Shown here in pieces: positions 19,142-31,968 of a DNA stretch of 40,042 bases (position 1 is its first letter; every line of letters starts with the position of its first letter). This DNA comes from Mycolicibacterium chubuense. Lineage in GTDB: Bacteria > Actinomycetota > Actinomycetes > Mycobacteriales > Mycobacteriaceae. Under the pieces are notes generated by a model, which saw only the letters and a program-made list of their open reading frames with translations, was not told where the DNA came from and did no database searches. The position numbers were made by a program, and so were the translations under genes. The stretch is taken from positions 23,100 through 63,141 of the forward strand of contig NZ_JYNX01000026.1 in the NCBI RefSeq assembly GCF_001044255.1. The letters run 5' to 3'.

Positions 19142-20197
19142 ATGCCCCTCGAGGCAGCAGTCAAAGCGGAAGAGGCACTGATCCACGTTCTATGGATCAA
19201 CGCCGGTTTGAGTTGTGACGGCGATTCAGTGGCGTTGACTGCCGCCACTCAACCCAGCATCGAGGAGATCGCTCTCGGCGCGCTTCCCGGCCTGCCCAAG
19301 ATCGCCGTCCACTGGCCACTGATCGACTTCGAGTGCGGACCGAACGGGGGCGCCGACGACTTCCTCGAATGGTTCTTCAAAGCGGACAGAGGCGAATTGG
19401 AACCGTTCGTGTTGGTCGTCGAGGGGTCGATCCCGAACGAGAAGATCAAGAACGAGGGGTACTGGTGCGGGTTCGGCAACGACCCGGCAACCGGCCAGCC
19501 GATGACCACCAGCGAATGGCTGGATCGCCTCGCGCCCAAGGCAACCGCGGTGGTGGCGGTGGGGACGTGTGCCACCTACGGCGGCATCCACGCGATGGCG
19601 GGCAACCCGACGGGCGCCATGGGGGTGCCCGACTATCTCGGATGGGACTGGAAGACCAAGGCGGGCATCCCGATCGTGTGCGTGCCCGGCTGCCCGATCC
19701 ATCCGGACAACCTGTCGGAGACGTTGACGTACCTGTTGTACATGGCCACCGACCAGGCCCCGATGATCCCGCTGGACGATGCCCTGCGGCCCACATGGCT
19801 GTTCGGCGCGACCGTGCACGAGGGGTGCGACCGGGCCGGCTACTACGAGCAGGGCGATTTCGCCACCGAGTACGGGTCCCCGAAATGCATTGTCAAGCTT
19901 GGCTGCTGGGGTCCTGTCGTCAAGTGCAACGTGCCCAAACGCGGCTGGATCAACGGCGTCGGCGGTTGCCCGAACGTCGGCGGCATCTGCATCGGATGCA
20001 CCATGCCGGGCTTCCCCGACAAGTTCATGCCGTTCATGGACGAACCGCCAGGCGGCAAGCTCTCGAGCGGCGCGTCCGGACTGTACGGCTCGGTGATCCG
20101 CAGTCTGCGCCACGTCACGGGTCGCACGCTCGACAAAGAACCCAGGTGGCGCCATCCCGGCACGCGGCTCGAGACGGGAGCGACGCGCACCTGGTAG
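19142..20197 (+). CDS. hhyS: Group 1h [NiFe]-hydrogenase small subunit (HhyS)
   Basis: A 351-residue iron-sulfur subunit carrying electrons from the active site. VLWINAGLSCDGDSV replaces the usual CxGC proximal motif, so the proximal cluster is probably held by Cys25, Asp28, Cys143 (GTCATYGG) and Cys184 (VPGCPIHPDN). This 3Cys-1Asp coordination is known from the actinobacterial-type hydrogenase of Cupriavidus. Distal ligands are His226, Cys229, Cys249 and Cys255. Medial ligands are Cys262, Cys276, Cys283 and Cys286, indicating a [4Fe-4S] rather than a [3Fe-4S] cluster. There is no twin-arginine signal, so the enzyme should face the cytoplasm. The features fit group 1h, whose members oxidise atmospheric H2 during carbon starvation. 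The C-terminal 50 residues are basic and beyond the cluster domain. Confidence 0.95.
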   Translation: MPLEAAVKAEEALIHVLWINAGLSCDGDSVALTAATQPSIEEIALGALPGLPKIAVHWPLIDFECGPNGGADDFLEWFFKADRGELEPFVLVVEGSIPNEKIKNEGYWCGFGNDPATGQPMTTSEWLDRLAPKATAVVAVGTCATYGGIHAMAGNPTGAMGVPDYLGWDWKTKAGIPIVCVPGCPIHPDNLSETLTYLLYMATDQAPMIPLDDALRPTWLFGATVHEGCDRAGYYEQGDFATEYGSPKCIVKLGCWGPVVKCNVPKRGWINGVGGCPNVGGICIGCTMPGFPDKFMPFMDEPPGGKLSSGASGLYGSVIRSLRHVTGRTLDKEPRWRHPGTRLETGATRTW

Positions 20198-20289: not shown

Positions 20290-22086
20290 ATGACAACGAT
20301 CATCCCCGAGCCGTCCCACGTCAAGCGCGACCCCGGCCAACTGGTGGAGATGGCCTGGGACCCGATCACCCGAATCGTCGGCAGCCTCGGCATATACACC
20401 AAGATCGATTTCGAGAATCGGGAAGTCGTCGAGTGCCACAGCACCTCGTCGATCTTCCGCGGCTACTCGATCTTCATGAAGGGCAAGGACCCCAGAGACG
20501 CGCACTTCATCACCAGCCGCATCTGCGGTATCTGCGGGGACAATCACGCCACCTGCTCGTGCTACTGCCAGAACATGGCGTACGGCGTGCAGCCGCCGCA
20601 TCTGGGTGAGTGGCTGATCAACCTCGGCGAGGCCGCCGAATACATGTTCGACCACAACATCTTTCAGGAGAACCTGGTGGGGGTCGACTACTGCGAGAAG
20701 ATGGTGGCCGAAACCAACCCCAGCGTGCTCGCCAAGGCCGAGAACACCCAGTCTCCGCAGGCCGACGCCCACGGCTACCGCACGATCGCCGACATCATGA
20801 GGGCACTCAACCCGTTCACCGGCGACTTCTACCGCGAGGCGCTCCAGGTGAGCAGGTGGACCCGGGAGATGTTCTGCCTGATGGAAGGCCGGCACGTGCA
20901 TCCCTCGACGCTGTATCCCGGCGGTATCGGCACCACCGCCACCATCCAGCTGATGACCGACTACATGACGCGGCTGATGCGCTACGTGGAGTTCATGAAG
21001 AAAGTCGTACCGATGCACGATGACCTCTTCGACTTCTTCTACGAGGCGCTGCCCGGCTACGACCAGGTGGGCCTGCGGCGAACCCTGCTCGGCTGCTGGG
21101 GCTCGTTCCAGGACCCCGAAGTGTGCAACTTCGCATACAAGGACATGGAGCGCTGGGGCAACGCCATGTTCGTCACCCCCGGCGTGGTCATCGACGGCAG
21201 ACTGCACACCCATTCACTGGTAGACATCAACCTCGGTATCCGAATCCTGTTGGGCCACAGCTATTACGACGACTGGTCCGACCAGGAGATGTTCGTCAAG
21301 ACCGATCCGCTGGGGAATCCGATCGATCGGCGTCATCCGTGGAACCAGCACACCAACCCCAAGCCGCAGAAGCGGGATTTCGACGGCAACTACAGCTGGG
21401 TGATGTCACCGCGATGGTTCGACGGCAAAGACCACCTGGCACTGGACACCGGGGGCGGCCCGCTGGCCCGGCTGTGGTCGACGGCGCTGGCCGGCCTGGT
21501 GGACATCGGCTACGTCAAGGCCACCGGTTCCAGCGTGCGCATCAACCTGCCGAAGACGGCGCTGAAAGGACCCGTCGAACTGGAGTGGAGGATCCCGGGG
21601 TACGGCAGCAACACCCTCGAACGCAACCGCGCCCGGACGTACTTCCAGGCCTACGCCGCCGCATGCGCTCTGCACTTCGCCGAAAAGGCACTCGTGGAGA
21701 TCCGTGCCGGACGCACCAAGACCTGGGAGAAGTTCGAGGTGCCCGACGAGGGCATCGGCTGCGGGTTCACCGAGGCGGTGCGCGGCGTGCTGTCCCACCA
21801 CATGGTGATCCGCGACGGCAAGATCGCGAACTATCACCCGTATCCGCCGACACCGTGGAACGCCAACCCACGTGACAGCTATGGGACGCCAGGGCCTTAC
21901 GAGGATGCGGTGCAGGGCCAGCCGATCTTCGAGGAGAACGACAGGGAGCATTTCAAGGGTATCGATGTCATGAGGACGGTGCGCAGCTTCGATCCGTGCC
22001 TGCCGTGTGGGGTGCACATGTACCTGGGCGAGGGGAAGCACCTGAACCTGCTGCACTCCCCCACCCAGTCCGTGACCGGGGAATAG
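20290..22086 (+). CDS. hhyL: Group 1h [NiFe]-hydrogenase large subunit (HhyL)
   Basis: A 598-residue catalytic subunit. The L1 motif is SRICGICGDNHATC with Cys79 and Cys82, and the L2 motif is DPCLPCGVH with Cys570 and Cys573; together these bind the Ni-Fe(CN)2CO centre. Twenty-two residues follow His576 and should be removed by the operon's endopeptidase after nickel insertion. DPITRIVGSLGIYTKIDF is the conserved N-terminal motif. An AGGAAGAAG lies before the ATG. The enzyme family oxidises H2 at sub-atmospheric concentration and tolerates oxygen. M. smegmatis has a close relative (Hhy, hydrogenase 2), as I recall also close to recA. Followed after 3 bp by the iron-sulfur protein gene. Confidence 0.97.
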   Translation: MTTIIPEPSHVKRDPGQLVEMAWDPITRIVGSLGIYTKIDFENREVVECHSTSSIFRGYSIFMKGKDPRDAHFITSRICGICGDNHATCSCYCQNMAYGVQPPHLGEWLINLGEAAEYMFDHNIFQENLVGVDYCEKMVAETNPSVLAKAENTQSPQADAHGYRTIADIMRALNPFTGDFYREALQVSRWTREMFCLMEGRHVHPSTLYPGGIGTTATIQLMTDYMTRLMRYVEFMKKVVPMHDDLFDFFYEALPGYDQVGLRRTLLGCWGSFQDPEVCNFAYKDMERWGNAMFVTPGVVIDGRLHTHSLVDINLGIRILLGHSYYDDWSDQEMFVKTDPLGNPIDRRHPWNQHTNPKPQKRDFDGNYSWVMSPRWFDGKDHLALDTGGGPLARLWSTALAGLVDIGYVKATGSSVRINLPKTALKGPVELEWRIPGYGSNTLERNRARTYFQAYAAACALHFAEKALVEIRAGRTKTWEKFEVPDEGIGCGFTEAVRGVLSHHMVIRDGKIANYHPYPPTPWNANPRDSYGTPGPYEDAVQGQPIFEENDREHFKGIDVMRTVRSFDPCLPCGVHMYLGEGKHLNLLHSPTQSVTGE

Positions 22087-22089
22087 GGC

Positions 22090-22980
22090 ATGGCCCCGCC
22101 GAAGCCGCCGAGCCGAGACGACGCGAAGTGGCGCGCGGCGGGCGATCGGATACAGACGCTGCTCGATGCGGTCGCAATCGGCGGTATGGCCGCGCGGGAG
22201 CGTGCCGAGCAACTGGTTGGCGAGGTGACGGATCTCTACGGAGCGGCGCTGGAGCGGATGATCGAGGCGGCCTTGACCGCGAAACCGGAACTCGCGCAGG
22301 TCTTCGCGGCCGACGATCTCGTCGCCAGCCTGCTGCTGGTGCACGGGCTGCATCCGCATGACGCCGAGCGGCGGGTGGCCGATGCGCTGGAGGCCGTGCG
22401 GCCCTATCTCGGCTCGCACGGCGGCGACGTTTCACTGCTGGGCGTGACCGACGGTGTCGTGCGCCTCCAGTTCCAGGGCAGCTGTAAGAGCTGTCCGTCC
22501 TCGTCGGTGACGCTCGAACTCGCGGTCCAGGATGCGGTGCGGGCGGCCGCCCCGGAGATCGAGACGATCGAAGTGGTTGCCGCCGAACCTGATTCAACGA
22601 CCGGCGTGATTCCCGCGGACGCGCTGCTGAATCGGGTGCGCGCCGACGGAATGCGCTCGACCTGGCAGCCGGTGCCTGCACTGGCCGAATTGCGCGACGC
22701 CGAGGTCGGCGGCTTCCGCGTGGCGGGCATGACCGCTCTGGCCTGCCGCATCGGCGATGCCGTGTTCGCCTACCGCGACCGGTGTGGCGCGTGCACCGGA
22801 TCGATGGCCGGTGCCCGTTTGACCGGTGCCGTGCTGCGGTGCCCCGGCTGCGGTGCCGGGTTCGACGTGGTCCACGCCGGCTGCGGGATCGGCGAAGACG
22901 GCCATCTGGAGCCGATACCGGTGCTCGAGCGCGACGGCGTGCTGTCGATGGCCGTGCCCGCATCCGCGGAGGTGGCGTGA
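22090..22980 (+). CDS. hhyE: NifU-domain / Rieske-like iron-sulfur protein of the hydrogenase operon (HhyE-like)
   Basis: A 296-residue protein in three parts: an N-terminal helical region (about 10-100); a NifU C-terminal-type domain with GSCKSCPSSSVTLE (Cys132, Cys135); and a C-terminal domain shaped like a Rieske ferredoxin (YRDRCGACTGSM ... RCPGCGAGFD). In Rieske proteins the second and fourth ligands are histidine. Here all four are cysteine (232, 235, 251, 254), so the cofactor and potential should differ. Position directly after the large subunit suggests an electron acceptor for the hydrogenase. A homologous iron-sulfur protein is thought to link Hhy of M. smegmatis to respiration. 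An assembly role is an alternative because of the NifU domain. Confidence 0.8.
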   Translation: MAPPKPPSRDDAKWRAAGDRIQTLLDAVAIGGMAARERAEQLVGEVTDLYGAALERMIEAALTAKPELAQVFAADDLVASLLLVHGLHPHDAERRVADALEAVRPYLGSHGGDVSLLGVTDGVVRLQFQGSCKSCPSSSVTLELAVQDAVRAAAPEIETIEVVAAEPDSTTGVIPADALLNRVRADGMRSTWQPVPALAELRDAEVGGFRVAGMTALACRIGDAVFAYRDRCGACTGSMAGARLTGAVLRCPGCGAGFDVVHAGCGIGEDGHLEPIPVLERDGVLSMAVPASAEVA

Positions 22981-23624
22981 TGCCGGGGGCCGGCAACGTC
23001 CCGACCGTGTTGACGCGCATCCGCGCCGGCCGCAATGCACCCGCGCCCGCGGGCGAGCGCTGCGAGATGTGCTCGGAGCCGGTCGCCGACGAGCACCAGC
23101 ACGTGGTCGATGTCGAGGTCCGGCAGCTGATGTGCGTCTGTCGTGGCTGCTACCTGCTGTTCACCGACACCACTGCGCAGTTGCGGTACCGGGCGGTGCC
23201 GGACCGCTACCTCGCGTTCCCGGATTTCGCGATGGACCGTCGCGCGTGGGAGGCCTTGCAGATCCCCGTCGGGCTGGCGTTCTTCTTCTGCAACTCCTCG
23301 CTCGGGCGCACCGTGGCCTTCTACCCGGGTCCCGCGGGCGCCACCGAGTCGGAACTGGACCTGCAGGCGTGGAACGACATCCGTGCCGCCGATCACCGGG
23401 TCGACAGCCTCGCCGCCGACACCGAAGCCCTCCTGGTGCGCGCGCCCGACACCGAGGACGCCGCGCCGCGGGGCTACCTCGTGCCGATCGACGCCTGCTA
23501 TGAGTTCGTCGGCCGGCTGCGCATCCTGTGGCGCGGATTCGACGGTGGCCAGGAGGCACACGACTACGTCCACCAGTTCTTCGAGCTTCTCGACGCACGC
23601 GCCCGGACGGTGCAGCGGACATGA
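22980..23624 (+). CDS. DUF5947-like protein of the hydrogenase operon, unknown function
   Basis: A 214-residue protein with a probable zinc or iron-sulfur site near the N-terminus: ERCEMCSEPV (CxxC) and MCVCRGCYLLF (CxCxxC) flank HQHVVDVEV. The rest is soluble and mixed alpha/beta, with VGLAFFFCNSSLGRTVAFYP and IDACYEFVGRLRILW. I associate it with the DUF5947 family found beside actinobacterial hydrogenases, from memory. Its ATG overlaps the preceding stop by one base and its stop overlaps the next ATG (ATGA), so expression is coupled to the hydrogenase. The role is unknown; the cysteine site makes an assembly or electron-transfer partner plausible. Confidence 0.72.
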   Translation: MPGAGNVPTVLTRIRAGRNAPAPAGERCEMCSEPVADEHQHVVDVEVRQLMCVCRGCYLLFTDTTAQLRYRAVPDRYLAFPDFAMDRRAWEALQIPVGLAFFFCNSSLGRTVAFYPGPAGATESELDLQAWNDIRAADHRVDSLAADTEALLVRAPDTEDAAPRGYLVPIDACYEFVGRLRILWRGFDGGQEAHDYVHQFFELLDARARTVQRT

Positions 23625-24259
23625 CCGAACTCGACTTCACCGTCGTCGACATCGCACCCGAGCCCTACGCCGTGACCCCGATGTTGACAGCCCGAATCGC
23701 CACCGCGGCGACCGGTGACGAGCCGATCCACGCGATCGCCTTGCGGTGCCAGGTCAGGATCGAACCGTTGCGGCGCAGCTATTCCGACGACGAAGCGACC
23801 GGACTTCTCGACCTGTTCGGACCTCGCGACCGGTGGTCGGCAACGCAGCACACATTCCTGTGGCAGCACACCTCGGTCACGGTGCCGGGGTTCACCGGGA
23901 CGACGGAGGTCCAGCTGCCGCTCGAGTGCACCTACGACTTCGAGGTCAAGGCTGCCAAGTATCTGCTGGCGCTCGACACGGGCGCCATTCCTCTGCAATT
24001 CCTCTTCAGTGGAACCGTTTTCGTCCACGGCAGTCGCGGTTTCGGAGTCCAGCAGGTGCCGTGGGACCGAGAGGAACGCTACGACATGCCGGTGTCGGTG
24101 TGGCGCGATCTCATCCGGCTGCACTATCCCAACACCGGTTGGCTGCGCCTGCCCCGTGACACCATCGACGCGCTGGCCGCCTACCGATCGGCCCGTGGAC
24201 TGCTCGACTTCGACGAGGCGATCTCCGAACTGCTGGCCGCGGCCAGGGAACTGCGATGA
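23621..24259 (+). CDS. DUF6084-like protein of the hydrogenase operon, unknown function
   Basis: A 212-residue soluble protein without cysteine clusters or membrane segments. The first two thirds look beta-rich (LRCQVRIEPLRRSYSDDEAT, TFLWQHTSVTVPGFTG, FEVKAAKYLLALDTG, LQFLFSGTVFV), and the end is helical. I recall this as DUF6084, seen only near such hydrogenases. Its start and stop both overlap neighbours by 4 bp (ATGA), the tightest possible coupling. It may form a complex with the DUF5947-like and the 445-residue protein encoded beside it (inference from coupling). No enzymatic motif is visible. Confidence 0.7.
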   Translation: MTELDFTVVDIAPEPYAVTPMLTARIATAATGDEPIHAIALRCQVRIEPLRRSYSDDEATGLLDLFGPRDRWSATQHTFLWQHTSVTVPGFTGTTEVQLPLECTYDFEVKAAKYLLALDTGAIPLQFLFSGTVFVHGSRGFGVQQVPWDREERYDMPVSVWRDLIRLHYPNTGWLRLPRDTIDALAAYRSARGLLDFDEAISELLAAARELR

Positions 24260-25593
24260 GCAGCGGATGGGACCGGGCCCGCGCGGTCGCCGACGCGGTG
24301 CTCTACGAGGGTTACCTGCTCTACCCGTACCGTGCCACGTCCGGGAAGAACCAGTCGCGCTGGCAGTTCGGCGTCCTCGGCCCGCCCGGTGCCGAGGAAT
24401 CCGGTATCGGCGAGAACGCGTCACTGTGCACGCAGGTTCTCGTCCGGCCGCTCGGCGCGCCGTCGGTGTCCGGCGTCGTTCGGTTCCTGCAACTGCAGCA
24501 CCGCGGGGTCGAACGCGACCTCGGTGGCGGTCGCTACGAGAAGGTCGACGAGCTACGGGCAGGTCCGGACAGGTGGTTGAGCTGGGACGAGGCGATCGAG
24601 TGCGAGATCGCCGTGGATGCCGCCCCTGTCTCGGCGCTGCCGCTCGCGGTGGACATCGCAGTCCCCGCCGGCACCGACCTCGAGACCGTCGATGGCGGCA
24701 GGCTGGTGCGCGGCCGTCGTGACCTGCGTGGCCGCCTCTCGATCGCGGCCGAGCCGGACGACGGGCTGCTGCGGCTGACGCTGGAGGTGCGCAACACCTC
24801 GTCGCCCGCAGCCGACAAGAACGAGGCGATCGCGACCTCCCTGATCGGCACCCACCTACTGCTGGAGGTCAGCGGCGGCGAATTCGTCTCGCTGCTCGAG
24901 CCACCCGGCGCCGCCGTCGGCGCAGCGGGACGATGTCGTCAGCATCGCTGTTTCCCCGTGTTGGCCGGGCCGCCCGGCGATCACGACCTGGTTCTGGTCT
25001 CGCCGATCATCCTGTACGACCATCCCGAGATCGCCGAACAGAGCAAGGGCGCACTGTACGACTCGACCGAGATCGACGAGATCCTGACGTTGCGCATCAT
25101 GACCATGACCGAGGAGGAGAAGGCCCAGGCCCGCGCCACCGACCCGTTGGCCGCCCAGATCATCGACCGCTGCGATTCGATGTCCCCGGAAGCGATGCTC
25201 GATCTGCACGGCGTACTGCGCAATCCGCACGCCGCCGCACCCGGCCCGGCGCTGCTCCCCGAGATCCCGCCGGACGTCGACTGGTGGGATCCCGAGGCCG
25301 ACAACGCCGTTCGCCCCGAGCTCGACGCGGTCCTGGTGAACGGCACCAGGGTGGCGCGGGGCAGCCGGGTGCGGCTGCACCCCTGCCGCCGGGCCGACGC
25401 CCAGGACCTGTTCTACGCCGACAGGATCGCGCGCGTGGCGTCTGTGCACGGCGATGTGGACGGCGGTCAGCACATCGGCGTCGTCCTCGAGGACGATCCG
25501 GCGGCCGAGCTGCACGACTGGTACGGCCGCTGCCTGTACTTCGCCCCCGACGAGGTCGAACCGCTCATCGAAAGGAGTCCGAAATGGAAGTAG
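24256..25593 (+). CDS. 445-residue hydrogenase-associated protein, unknown function
   Basis: A 445-residue soluble protein. The N-terminus DRARAVADAVLYEGYLLYPY leads into a beta-rich region (about 30-250). A helical stretch rich in acidic residues follows (EIDEILTLRIMTMTEEEKAQ). The C-terminal module of about 90 residues (VARGSRVRLHPCRRADAQDL to WYGRCLYFAPDEVEPL) resembles a small beta-barrel. I know no assigned function. It sits in every group 1h operon layout I remember, next to the two preceding unknown genes. Its last 10 bases overlap the 39-codon gene that follows. Confidence 0.7.
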   Translation: MSSGWDRARAVADAVLYEGYLLYPYRATSGKNQSRWQFGVLGPPGAEESGIGENASLCTQVLVRPLGAPSVSGVVRFLQLQHRGVERDLGGGRYEKVDELRAGPDRWLSWDEAIECEIAVDAAPVSALPLAVDIAVPAGTDLETVDGGRLVRGRRDLRGRLSIAAEPDDGLLRLTLEVRNTSSPAADKNEAIATSLIGTHLLLEVSGGEFVSLLEPPGAAVGAAGRCRQHRCFPVLAGPPGDHDLVLVSPIILYDHPEIAEQSKGALYDSTEIDEILTLRIMTMTEEEKAQARATDPLAAQIIDRCDSMSPEAMLDLHGVLRNPHAAAPGPALLPEIPPDVDWWDPEADNAVRPELDAVLVNGTRVARGSRVRLHPCRRADAQDLFYADRIARVASVHGDVDGGQHIGVVLEDDPAAELHDWYGRCLYFAPDEVEPLIERSPKWK

Positions 25594-25703
25594 TCGGCTG
25601 GATTGCCGTCGGCGTGGTGGCCGCCGTGATCCTCGCAGGAGTGGTGATCGGGGTGCGATCGGTTCCCGACGTGCAGCGCTACCTGAAGATGCGCCGCATG
25701 TGA
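25584..25703 (+). CDS. 39-residue single-span membrane protein of the hydrogenase operon (DUF6893-like)
   Basis: A very short gene: one N-terminal membrane helix (about residues 4-24, VGWIAVGVVAAVILAGVV) and a C-terminal basic amphipathic tail, PDVQRYLKMRRM. AAAGGAG lies 8 bases before the ATG, the clearest ribosome-binding site in this part of the operon. It overlaps the preceding gene by 10 bp and the next GTG by 4 bp. I recall DUF6893 as a name for such small proteins. Because neither hydrogenase subunit has a membrane segment, this peptide is a good candidate for anchoring or docking the enzyme at the membrane (inference). Confidence 0.75.
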   Translation: MEVVGWIAVGVVAAVILAGVVIGVRSVPDVQRYLKMRRM

Positions 25704-26188
25704 CCCCGAGGATCCTGGTGGCCGGGATCGGCAACATCTTCCTCGGGGACGACGGCTTCGGCCCCGAGGTCATGCGGCACATCCCGGCGCGGCTCGCCGG
25801 ACCGTGTGTTCGGCTCACGGACTACGGCATCAGGGGCATGCATCTGGCCTACGACCTGCTCGACGGCTGGTCGGCACTGGTGCTCGTCGACGCCGTGCCC
25901 AGCCGCGGCGCGCCCGGGACGGTGCACGTGTTCGAGGCCGACCACGAAAGTCTCGCCGTGAGCGCCGGTCTCGATGCGCATGCCATGGACCCGGGCGCGG
26001 TGTTCGCCAGCCTCGCGGCACTCGGCGGCACGCCGCCCCGCACGATCGTGATCGGCTGTGAGGCCGAGGCAGTCGAGGAGGGCATCGGTCTCTCCGACGC
26101 CGTCGCGGCTGCGGTGCCGACCGCGGCACAAGCCGTCGAGGACCTTCTGACCGATCTGCTCACGCGTTCCGCGGCGGGAAGGGGCTGA
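25700..26188 (+). CDS. Hydrogenase maturation endopeptidase (HyaD/HybD family)
   Basis: A 162-residue nickel-dependent protease expected to cleave the HhyL C-terminus after His576. Landmarks are ILVAGIGNIFLGDDGFGPEV, with aspartate where HybD has its metal-binding glutamate, a central LVLVDAVPS, and the histidine in LDAHAMDPG. The GTG at 25700 overlaps the 39-codon gene's stop. The open frame extends back to 25454 but that part is shadow sequence. Placement between structural and hyp genes fits a dedicated protease for this enzyme. Confidence 0.92.
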   Translation: MTPRILVAGIGNIFLGDDGFGPEVMRHIPARLAGPCVRLTDYGIRGMHLAYDLLDGWSALVLVDAVPSRGAPGTVHVFEADHESLAVSAGLDAHAMDPGAVFASLAALGGTPPRTIVIGCEAEAVEEGIGLSDAVAAAVPTAAQAVEDLLTDLLTRSAAGRG

Positions 26189-31227: not shown

Positions 31228-31968
31228 ATGACCGCGCCAACCGGGCAGGTCCACGCCGGCCATGCGCTGTTCGCGCAGTACGCGTACCCGCCGAACGAAC
31301 TCGGATACTGCGGGCCCGAGGACACCGCGGCGCTTCTGCGTGCCGGCGACGAGATGACCTCGGTCATCCGCGAATTCGACGGCGCCTGGCCGTACCTGCG
31401 GGCCATCGCGGACGCGGCGGGCGTCGCCGACCCGCTCGATGTCGAGGTGGTGCGCACCTACTGGGTCGGCGGTCCTCAGCTGAACGCGGTGGACGCGCGG
31501 ACATTGCTCGACCGGCTCCGCGCGGCGTTCGCCGGCCAGGTGACCGGGCTGCTCGGCGACCTGGGCGTCGACGCGCACGCGTTGGCCCACCACAGCTTTC
31601 ACGTCTTCGTCGTGTATCCGTGGGTGCGCTTCCTGGATCGGGATCCGCCGACCACCGCGCTGCACGTCCTGCAGCGGTGCCGGATTCGTTGGGGCACCGT
31701 GGTCGGCCTCGACGACGAGCACGTGATGCTCGAGTCGCGGCCCCTCGTCGTCGACGACGGCCGGTTGTCGCTCGGGGACCCTGCCGCCGAGCGGGTGAGG
31801 TGGAGCCGGGACGGCAGGTCGCTGACCACGGCACCCGCCGTCGGTGACGTCGTCGCCGCGCACTGGGACTGGGTGTGCGGTTCCCTCACCGACGCCGACC
31901 GCACCGCACTGACGATGGCGACGCAATCGACCCTCGAGCTCGTGAACACGGCGATGAGTCGAACTTGA
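31228..31968 (+). CDS. DUF6390-like protein, last gene of the hydrogenase operon
   Basis: A 246-residue soluble protein that starts directly after the hypE stop, with no gap. The N-terminal HALFAQYAYPPNELGYCGP is distinctive. The middle contains ALAHHSFHVFVVYPWVRFLD, and a C-terminal half ends near TQSTLELVNTAMSRT. I connect it with DUF6390, known from actinobacterial hydrogenase loci, from memory only. No catalytic motif is evident. Its link to hypE suggests a role in maturation rather than electron transfer, but this is a guess. It meets the convergent DUF3046 gene after 4 bp. Confidence 0.7.
   Translation: MTAPTGQVHAGHALFAQYAYPPNELGYCGPEDTAALLRAGDEMTSVIREFDGAWPYLRAIADAAGVADPLDVEVVRTYWVGGPQLNAVDARTLLDRLRAAFAGQVTGLLGDLGVDAHALAHHSFHVFVVYPWVRFLDRDPPTTALHVLQRCRIRWGTVVGLDDEHVMLESRPLVVDDGRLSLGDPAAERVRWSRDGRSLTTAPAVGDVVAAHWDWVCGSLTDADRTALTMATQSTLELVNTAMSRT

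Follow-up and report, generated by a model that had tools for sequence, protein, structure and literature searches.

Four overlapping genes in a group 1h [NiFe]-hydrogenase cluster of Mycolicibacterium chubuense and a candidate membrane-docking peptide

The cluster analysed here encodes a group 1h [NiFe]-hydrogenase in Mycolicibacterium chubuense and lies within a stretch of 40,042 nucleotides, referred to as the window (assembly GCF_001044255.1, contig NZ_JYNX01000026.1, positions 23,100 to 63,141 of the forward strand). Between its catalytic and maturation genes are four overlapping genes, here called A, B, C and D, and the evidence supports assigning all four families to group 1h hydrogenases. 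In six phyla this gene set is found next to the large subunit HhyL, so the arrangement is more than chance. We give an even chance to the view that the four genes form a dedicated accessory set, in which A, B and C would assemble or tune the HhySL enzyme and D, a peptide with a single membrane span, would dock it to the membrane. Part of this set is already known, and peptide D is the most useful new lead. The genes hhyS, hhyL and hhyE precede the four, while the protease gene (P), a HypC gene, and HypD and HypE-type genes follow them:

19142..20197, + strand: hhyS, small subunit, 351 residues; Pfam PF14720/PF01058; top Protein Data Bank (PDB) match 5aa5_A, HofK, E 1e-162
20290..22086, + strand: hhyL, large subunit, 598 residues; PF00374; 77% identity to the 1h large subunit of Cupriavidus necator pHG1
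22090..22980, + strand: hhyE, NifU-like, with a C-terminal CxxC pair domain, 296 residues; PF01106; three CxxC
22980..23624, + strand: A, DUF5947, 214 residues, CxxC-7-HxH-10-CxCxxC; PF19372
23621..24259, + strand: B, DUF6084, 212 residues; PF19562
24256..25593, + strand: C, 445 residues, with C1 at about residues 1-335 and C2 at about residues 359-437; without a Pfam or NCBIfam family
25330..25566, + strand: C2 domain of C; elsewhere shares one frame with P in 20 of 113 loci
25573..25577, + strand: AGGAG, within the end of C, probable ribosome-binding site of D; read from the sequence
25584..25703, + strand: D, DUF6893 single-span membrane peptide, 39 residues, C-terminus PDVQRYLKMRRM; PF21833, 1.3e-13
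25700..26188, + strand: P, hydrogenase maturation protease, 162 residues, GTG start; PF01750; TIGR00072
26193..26447, + strand: HypC-type chaperone, 84 residues; PF01455

The cluster is assigned to group 1h by the identity of HhyL and the PDB match of HhyS rather than by HydDB classification. A preliminary description of this DNA had placed the four genes between hhyE and the maturation protease, and the coordinates of the open reading frames bear this out, as they do its junction overlaps along hhyE-A-B-C-D-P, which measure 1 (TGATG), 4 (ATGA), 4, 10 and 4 (GTGA) nucleotides exactly as given. The AGGAG is spaced 6 nucleotides upstream of the start of D. The genes had been described as lacking a known function, which holds, although three of them are named Pfam families: A scores as DUF5947 (E 7e-73, 244 bits), B as DUF6084 (E 8e-96, 320 bits) and D as DUF6893 (E 1e-13, 51 bits), each above its gathering cut-off (25, 25 and 24.6 bits, respectively) and thus a family member. 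C has no Pfam match at E 0.01, and NCBIfam gives no family for any of the four. A Pfam scan of 20 of the window proteins, the extent of this search, likewise showed no cytochrome b subunit.

Linkage of the four families to the group 1h large subunit

Among 72,556 plasmid records, HhyL (threshold E 1e-50), A and C (both E 1e-5) all match the same 12 records, representing 9 distinct plasmids, and B is found in 10 of these. Searching 84,980 species genomes for DUF6084 yielded at least 590 pattern matches, at least 550 of them confirmed, and 80 were kept as loci. These 80 loci contain HhyL in 76 cases, A in 78, C1 in 80, C2 in 79, and P and hhyE in 77 each, and all four loci without HhyL are cut by a contig start. 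By record title, the loci come from Pseudomonadota, Acidobacteriota, Chloroflexota, Planctomycetota, Verrucomicrobiota and Actinomycetota. Counted over 119 loci, B is present in 116.

Co-occurrence by genome sampling, covering the Actinomycetota and one acidobacterial family, gives a similar linkage. In 296 Actinomycetota genomes, A occurs in 26, B in 27, C in 28 and D in 26, of which 25, 24, 25 and 18 are shared with HhyL, with Fisher p values of 4e-31, 3e-27, 5e-29 and 1e-15 that are only indicative because the genomes are related. The 29 HhyL-1h-positive genomes in this sample were chosen by hand on bits per residue, and five of them are fragments. Where A, B or C occurs without a 1h-like HhyL (genomes G189, G216 and G290), the cluster is interrupted by a contig end, and genomes G107, G184 and G227 hold pieces of HhyL without A to C. 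In the acidobacterial family, HhyL occurs in 20 of 150 genomes, C2 in 19 (18 shared with HhyL) and D in 18 (17 shared). The preliminary description had named co-occurrence as its check and held that its proposal would fail if the families were common without hydrogenases; in the Actinomycetota sample the carriers of A, B and C are nearly all carriers of HhyL, and no such wide independent occurrence was seen.

The overlapping chain as a single unit, which that description had stressed, is not conserved: elsewhere D mostly follows P, C is split in some loci, and B is absent from one variant. In four verrucomicrobial loci the block A-B-C (with P in three) precedes hhyS-hhyL and is separate from hhyE in three.

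Several observations on hydrogenase genes were made alongside these counts. Nine acidobacterial loci (L030, L033, L034, L035, L038, L041, L043, L045 and L047) carry a second full small-subunit gene upstream of hhySL and no second large subunit (for example L035:1181-5027). In L034 and L035 this extra gene is followed by an apparent PAS histidine kinase and a NarL-type regulator, as read from open reading frames without Pfam, and the extra subunit is possibly a small-subunit-only sensor. A genome of the window's genus (G150) holds an hhy remnant (L121:7281-8656) with hhyS pieces, perhaps C, and then D, P and HypC, the hhyL gene and the middle being lost. In G107, pieces of hhyL and hhyS stand in one frame as a decayed hydrogenase locus (L130:6653-7192). 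The M. chubuense genome itself has a second, 28-residue DUF6084 match beside an N (G000:C37:110079-110162, L002), probably an assembly join. Within the window, a DUF6390 protein at 31228-31968 (+ strand) adjoins the HypE-type gene and is another uncharacterised family beside hydrogenase genes.

Occurrence and predicted topology of peptide D

Peptide D is present in 99 of the 107 loci in which P and its downstream side can be assessed (including the duplicate pairs L071=L117 and L085=L097), spread over six phyla; 93 copies follow P, and 6 precede it in the order of the window. The profile behind this count was grown from the window peptide and refined in three iterations that used these same loci; six of the 99 peptides were added by eye, and some acidobacterial copies score only 18-30 bits. 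The curated DUF6893 profile of Pfam, which does not depend on ours, places 7 of 9 tested D peptides of other lineages above its cut-off, the Methylocystis peptide and one acidobacterial form falling below it. The divergent forms of L005, L118, L119, L091, L066 and L067 are not matched by DUF6893 and are D-like by eye only. All three loci of the B-less variant (L005, L118 and L119) have, after A, a membrane peptide with the motif P-x-L-x-R-E-x-R-I-W-R-M, and in L091 the membrane peptide has the C-terminus PAMRRELRIMKM.

Most copies of D are 32-39 residues long with one hydrophobic span, and the tail is strongly constrained. In 110 peptides from 108 loci, the last residue is Met, position -7 is Tyr and position -8 is Arg or Lys in every case, while position -11 is Asp or Glu in 103 of the 110, a tally in which the peptides of the B-less variant and L091 are not counted. 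The last 11 residues hold on average 3.5 Lys or Arg and 1.1 Asp or Glu, and from this excess of positive charge, by the positive-inside rule, we infer that the C-terminus lies in the cytoplasm. A search of 2.05 Mb for the motif plus a span, with the motif defined post hoc after the peptides had been seen, returned 108 open reading frame ends, 100 of them near P, and 0 in the reversed sequence. In 10 Burkholderiaceae, the ratio of nonsynonymous to synonymous polymorphism (pN/pS) of D is 0.23. The gene tables of 5 out of 5 annotated plasmid records lack D, although these tables are themselves incomplete.

It is very unlikely, in our judgement, that D is an unrelated small membrane protein carried along by gene order. 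Some copies do stand outside hhy clusters (L104 on the minus strand, L124, L125 and L126), as that explanation would have it, but the linkage persists while the position of D shifts from one side of P to the other. Moreover, in the whole genomes of 49 of the 80 loci, DUF6893 is matched in 38 and unmatched in 11, and 36 of the 40 matches fall within the hhy locus, with only 4 beyond the fetched ±10 kb. Several of the 11 unmatched genomes have a D-like peptide by our own profile scan or by eye. In G312, G315 and G320 (Edaphobacter and a Terriglobales metagenome-assembled genome), a D match lies several kb downstream of the operon, immediately outside the fetched region, and G312 and G315 have a second match in the locus.

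Cysteine motifs of A and HhyE and the domains of C

The motif CxxC-n-HxH-10-CxCxxC of A is intact in 112 of 114 loci; it is missing in L063 and in L111, which is interrupted by the end of its contig. In an AlphaFold model of A with a mean predicted local distance difference test score (pLDDT) of 90.8, the CxxC at 28-31 precedes two strands (40-44, 49-53) and a helix (55-59), and this order (CxxC, hairpin, helix starting at CxxC) appears to resemble a treble-clef zinc site. Profile comparisons with solved structures gave no convincing relative for A, B or C, and A has only weak matches, to TA0938 (E 0.35) and E7 (E 0.52). We take both of these to be zinc proteins, and for the conserved ligands of A zinc would suit as well as an Fe-S cluster. 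HhyE is less constant: CxxC is absent in 66 of 111 loci and Cys altogether in 24 of 111, a few of these sequences being cut by contig ends, and at least three CxxC sites are found in 26 loci, in long forms such as that of the window. HhyE as a general Fe-S electron carrier therefore finds no support beyond the long forms, since the Cys ligands are not conserved there (the window HhyE keeps them), and their loss in most of the loci examined makes the current electron-carrier hypothesis weaker as a general account.

The preliminary description had called the genes unknown, yet some have drawn earlier notice: the homologue of A in Ralstonia eutropha, PHG067, has been published as "the proposed electron acceptor". 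In that proposal A would be a redox relay that accepts electrons at the distal cluster of HhyS and hands them on, and it gains from the near-invariance of the Cys/His motif in A, whereas HhyE, the other candidate, so often lacks CxxC. Set against it are the resemblance of the A model to a zinc site and its weak matches to TA0938 and E7, together with a Dechloromonas locus (L063) in which the A motif is lost and hhySL, B, C and P are kept; we consider a relay role for A possible but doubtful.

The two parts of C, C1 and C2, are separable. Across 113 loci with C2, C1 and C2 share one frame in 67, C2 stands alone in 26, and C2 and P share one frame in 20, of which 19 are acidobacterial and one actinobacterial (L086, Solirubrobacterales). 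The four fused frames that were read each continue from C2 into the protease with no stop, and this fusion argues for an assembly role for C. The verrucomicrobial loci, where A-B-C forms a block of its own ahead of hhyS-hhyL, point the same way. In the accessory set that we favour, A, B and C would be soluble factors that build or tune HhySL together with the maturation protease, with A as a metal-binding protein, B as an assembly or stability factor, and C2 acting on HhyL beside the protease during its maturation. The idea of a coupling or assembly module is supported in part: the set belongs to group 1h, and the C-protease fusion favours assembly for C. D is the sole membrane component seen, and the four genes probably do not share a single role.

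Alternatively, all four could be maturation factors only, with D tethering the assembly site and electrons leaving through another partner. The position of D next to the protease in the 99 loci would suit such a role, as would two genomes without a whole 1h enzyme, the G150 remnant and G195, in which D and P stay together. However, the finished enzyme is reported to be membrane-associated, which a maturation-only role would leave unexplained, and we regard such a role as unlikely.

Comparison with known systems and a possible membrane anchor

Conserved hypothetical genes of group 1h clusters have been published before. In Thermomicrobium roseum, conserved hypotheticals named hhaABC likewise lie in the hhyLS operon and are upregulated together with it (PMC6776052); they presumably correspond to some of E, A, B and C, and the available part of that account mentions no small peptide. 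Likewise, four coding sequences of unknown function are described in alphaproteobacterial clusters, in the portion of the text available (PMC12319191). Searched by name, DUF5947, DUF6084 and DUF6893 gave a single match in the full-text literature, a paper on aurodox. The pHG1 plasmid of C. necator H16 (HofK/HofG, PHG066-070) has the same order S-L-E-A-B-C-P as the window; there D follows P, between the protease gene and hypF, is preceded by AGGAGG (L003:14651-14752) and is absent from the PLSDB gene table.

How the 1h enzyme reaches the membrane has been raised in earlier work. The 1h subunits of strain SolV are described, in the available part of the study, as having no transmembrane helix and no signal peptide, the enzyme being membrane-associated and its partner unknown (PMC7174314). 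A 2026 paper states that no membrane-anchoring subunit has been identified for 1h, and membrane association is apparently required for the high affinity of the enzyme, according to published work. In the proposed set, D would be a single-span peptide with its C-terminus predicted to be cytoplasmic. Through its conserved tail, PD-I-x-RY-L-K/R-I-R-x-M, it would hold HhySL, in itself a soluble enzyme of the cytoplasm, at the membrane and so bring it to quinone. By its span and its linkage to the enzyme, D fits what is expected of a hydrogenase membrane subunit, binding to HhySL being putative. We suggest, tentatively and with less than even confidence, that D is the missing 1h membrane subunit, and that, on the cytoplasmic side, its D-x-x-R-Y...M tail binds HhySL and contributes to the site of quinone reduction. 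To our knowledge, it would then be the smallest hydrogenase membrane subunit.

Two known systems illustrate such a role. HucM, which belongs to the group 2a hydrogenase Huc, connects a cytoplasmic hydrogenase with the membrane and menaquinone, in the available part of its description, as we propose for D. However, HucM is a peripheral protein of 188 residues that forms a tetrameric stalk, D is far shorter and has one span, and no homology is claimed. Similarly, a HoxZ-type cytochrome b of group 1 would anchor its enzyme and reach quinone, but D, unlike this type, has one span and, by eye, no haem-ligand pattern. A stronger version of the Huc analogy would make A to D subunits of a stable quinone-reducing 1h supercomplex. 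The strict co-occurrence and the Huc precedent speak for this, while the solved 1h entry 5aa5 lists HofK and the set shows no HucM-like protein; we take 5aa5 to hold only the small and large subunits, and consider the supercomplex quite unlikely.

Several observations weigh against the accessory set with D as its membrane dock. The C. necator enzyme was purified from the cytoplasm though D is in its cluster, which argues against a permanent tight anchor, or else D was lost on purification. SolV (Methylacidiphilum) is reported to lack homologues of the Pyrinomonas operon, yet has a membrane-associated 1h enzyme, as far as the available text goes (PMC7174314). D was not found in L030, L058, L062, L106 and L108, its tie to HhyL in the Actinomycetota is looser than that of A to C, and in G195 it stands with the protease and Hyp-type genes (L122:6780-7375) in a genome where no 1h HhyL was found. 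As for A to C, the Streptantibioticus-type variant (L005, L118 and L119) lacks B and places C before hhyS, the Dechloromonas locus (L063:9415-10005) retains only pieces of E and A, and in L099 E and B share one frame and A was not found. Finally, a HypC/HupF-like chaperone identity for C2 was tried and rejected (hhalign probability 1.4%, zero Pfam matches).

Group 1h hydrogenases rank with the principal enzymes that remove H2 from air. D has the right linkage and predicted topology for an anchor of such an enzyme, and makes the anchor question directly testable.

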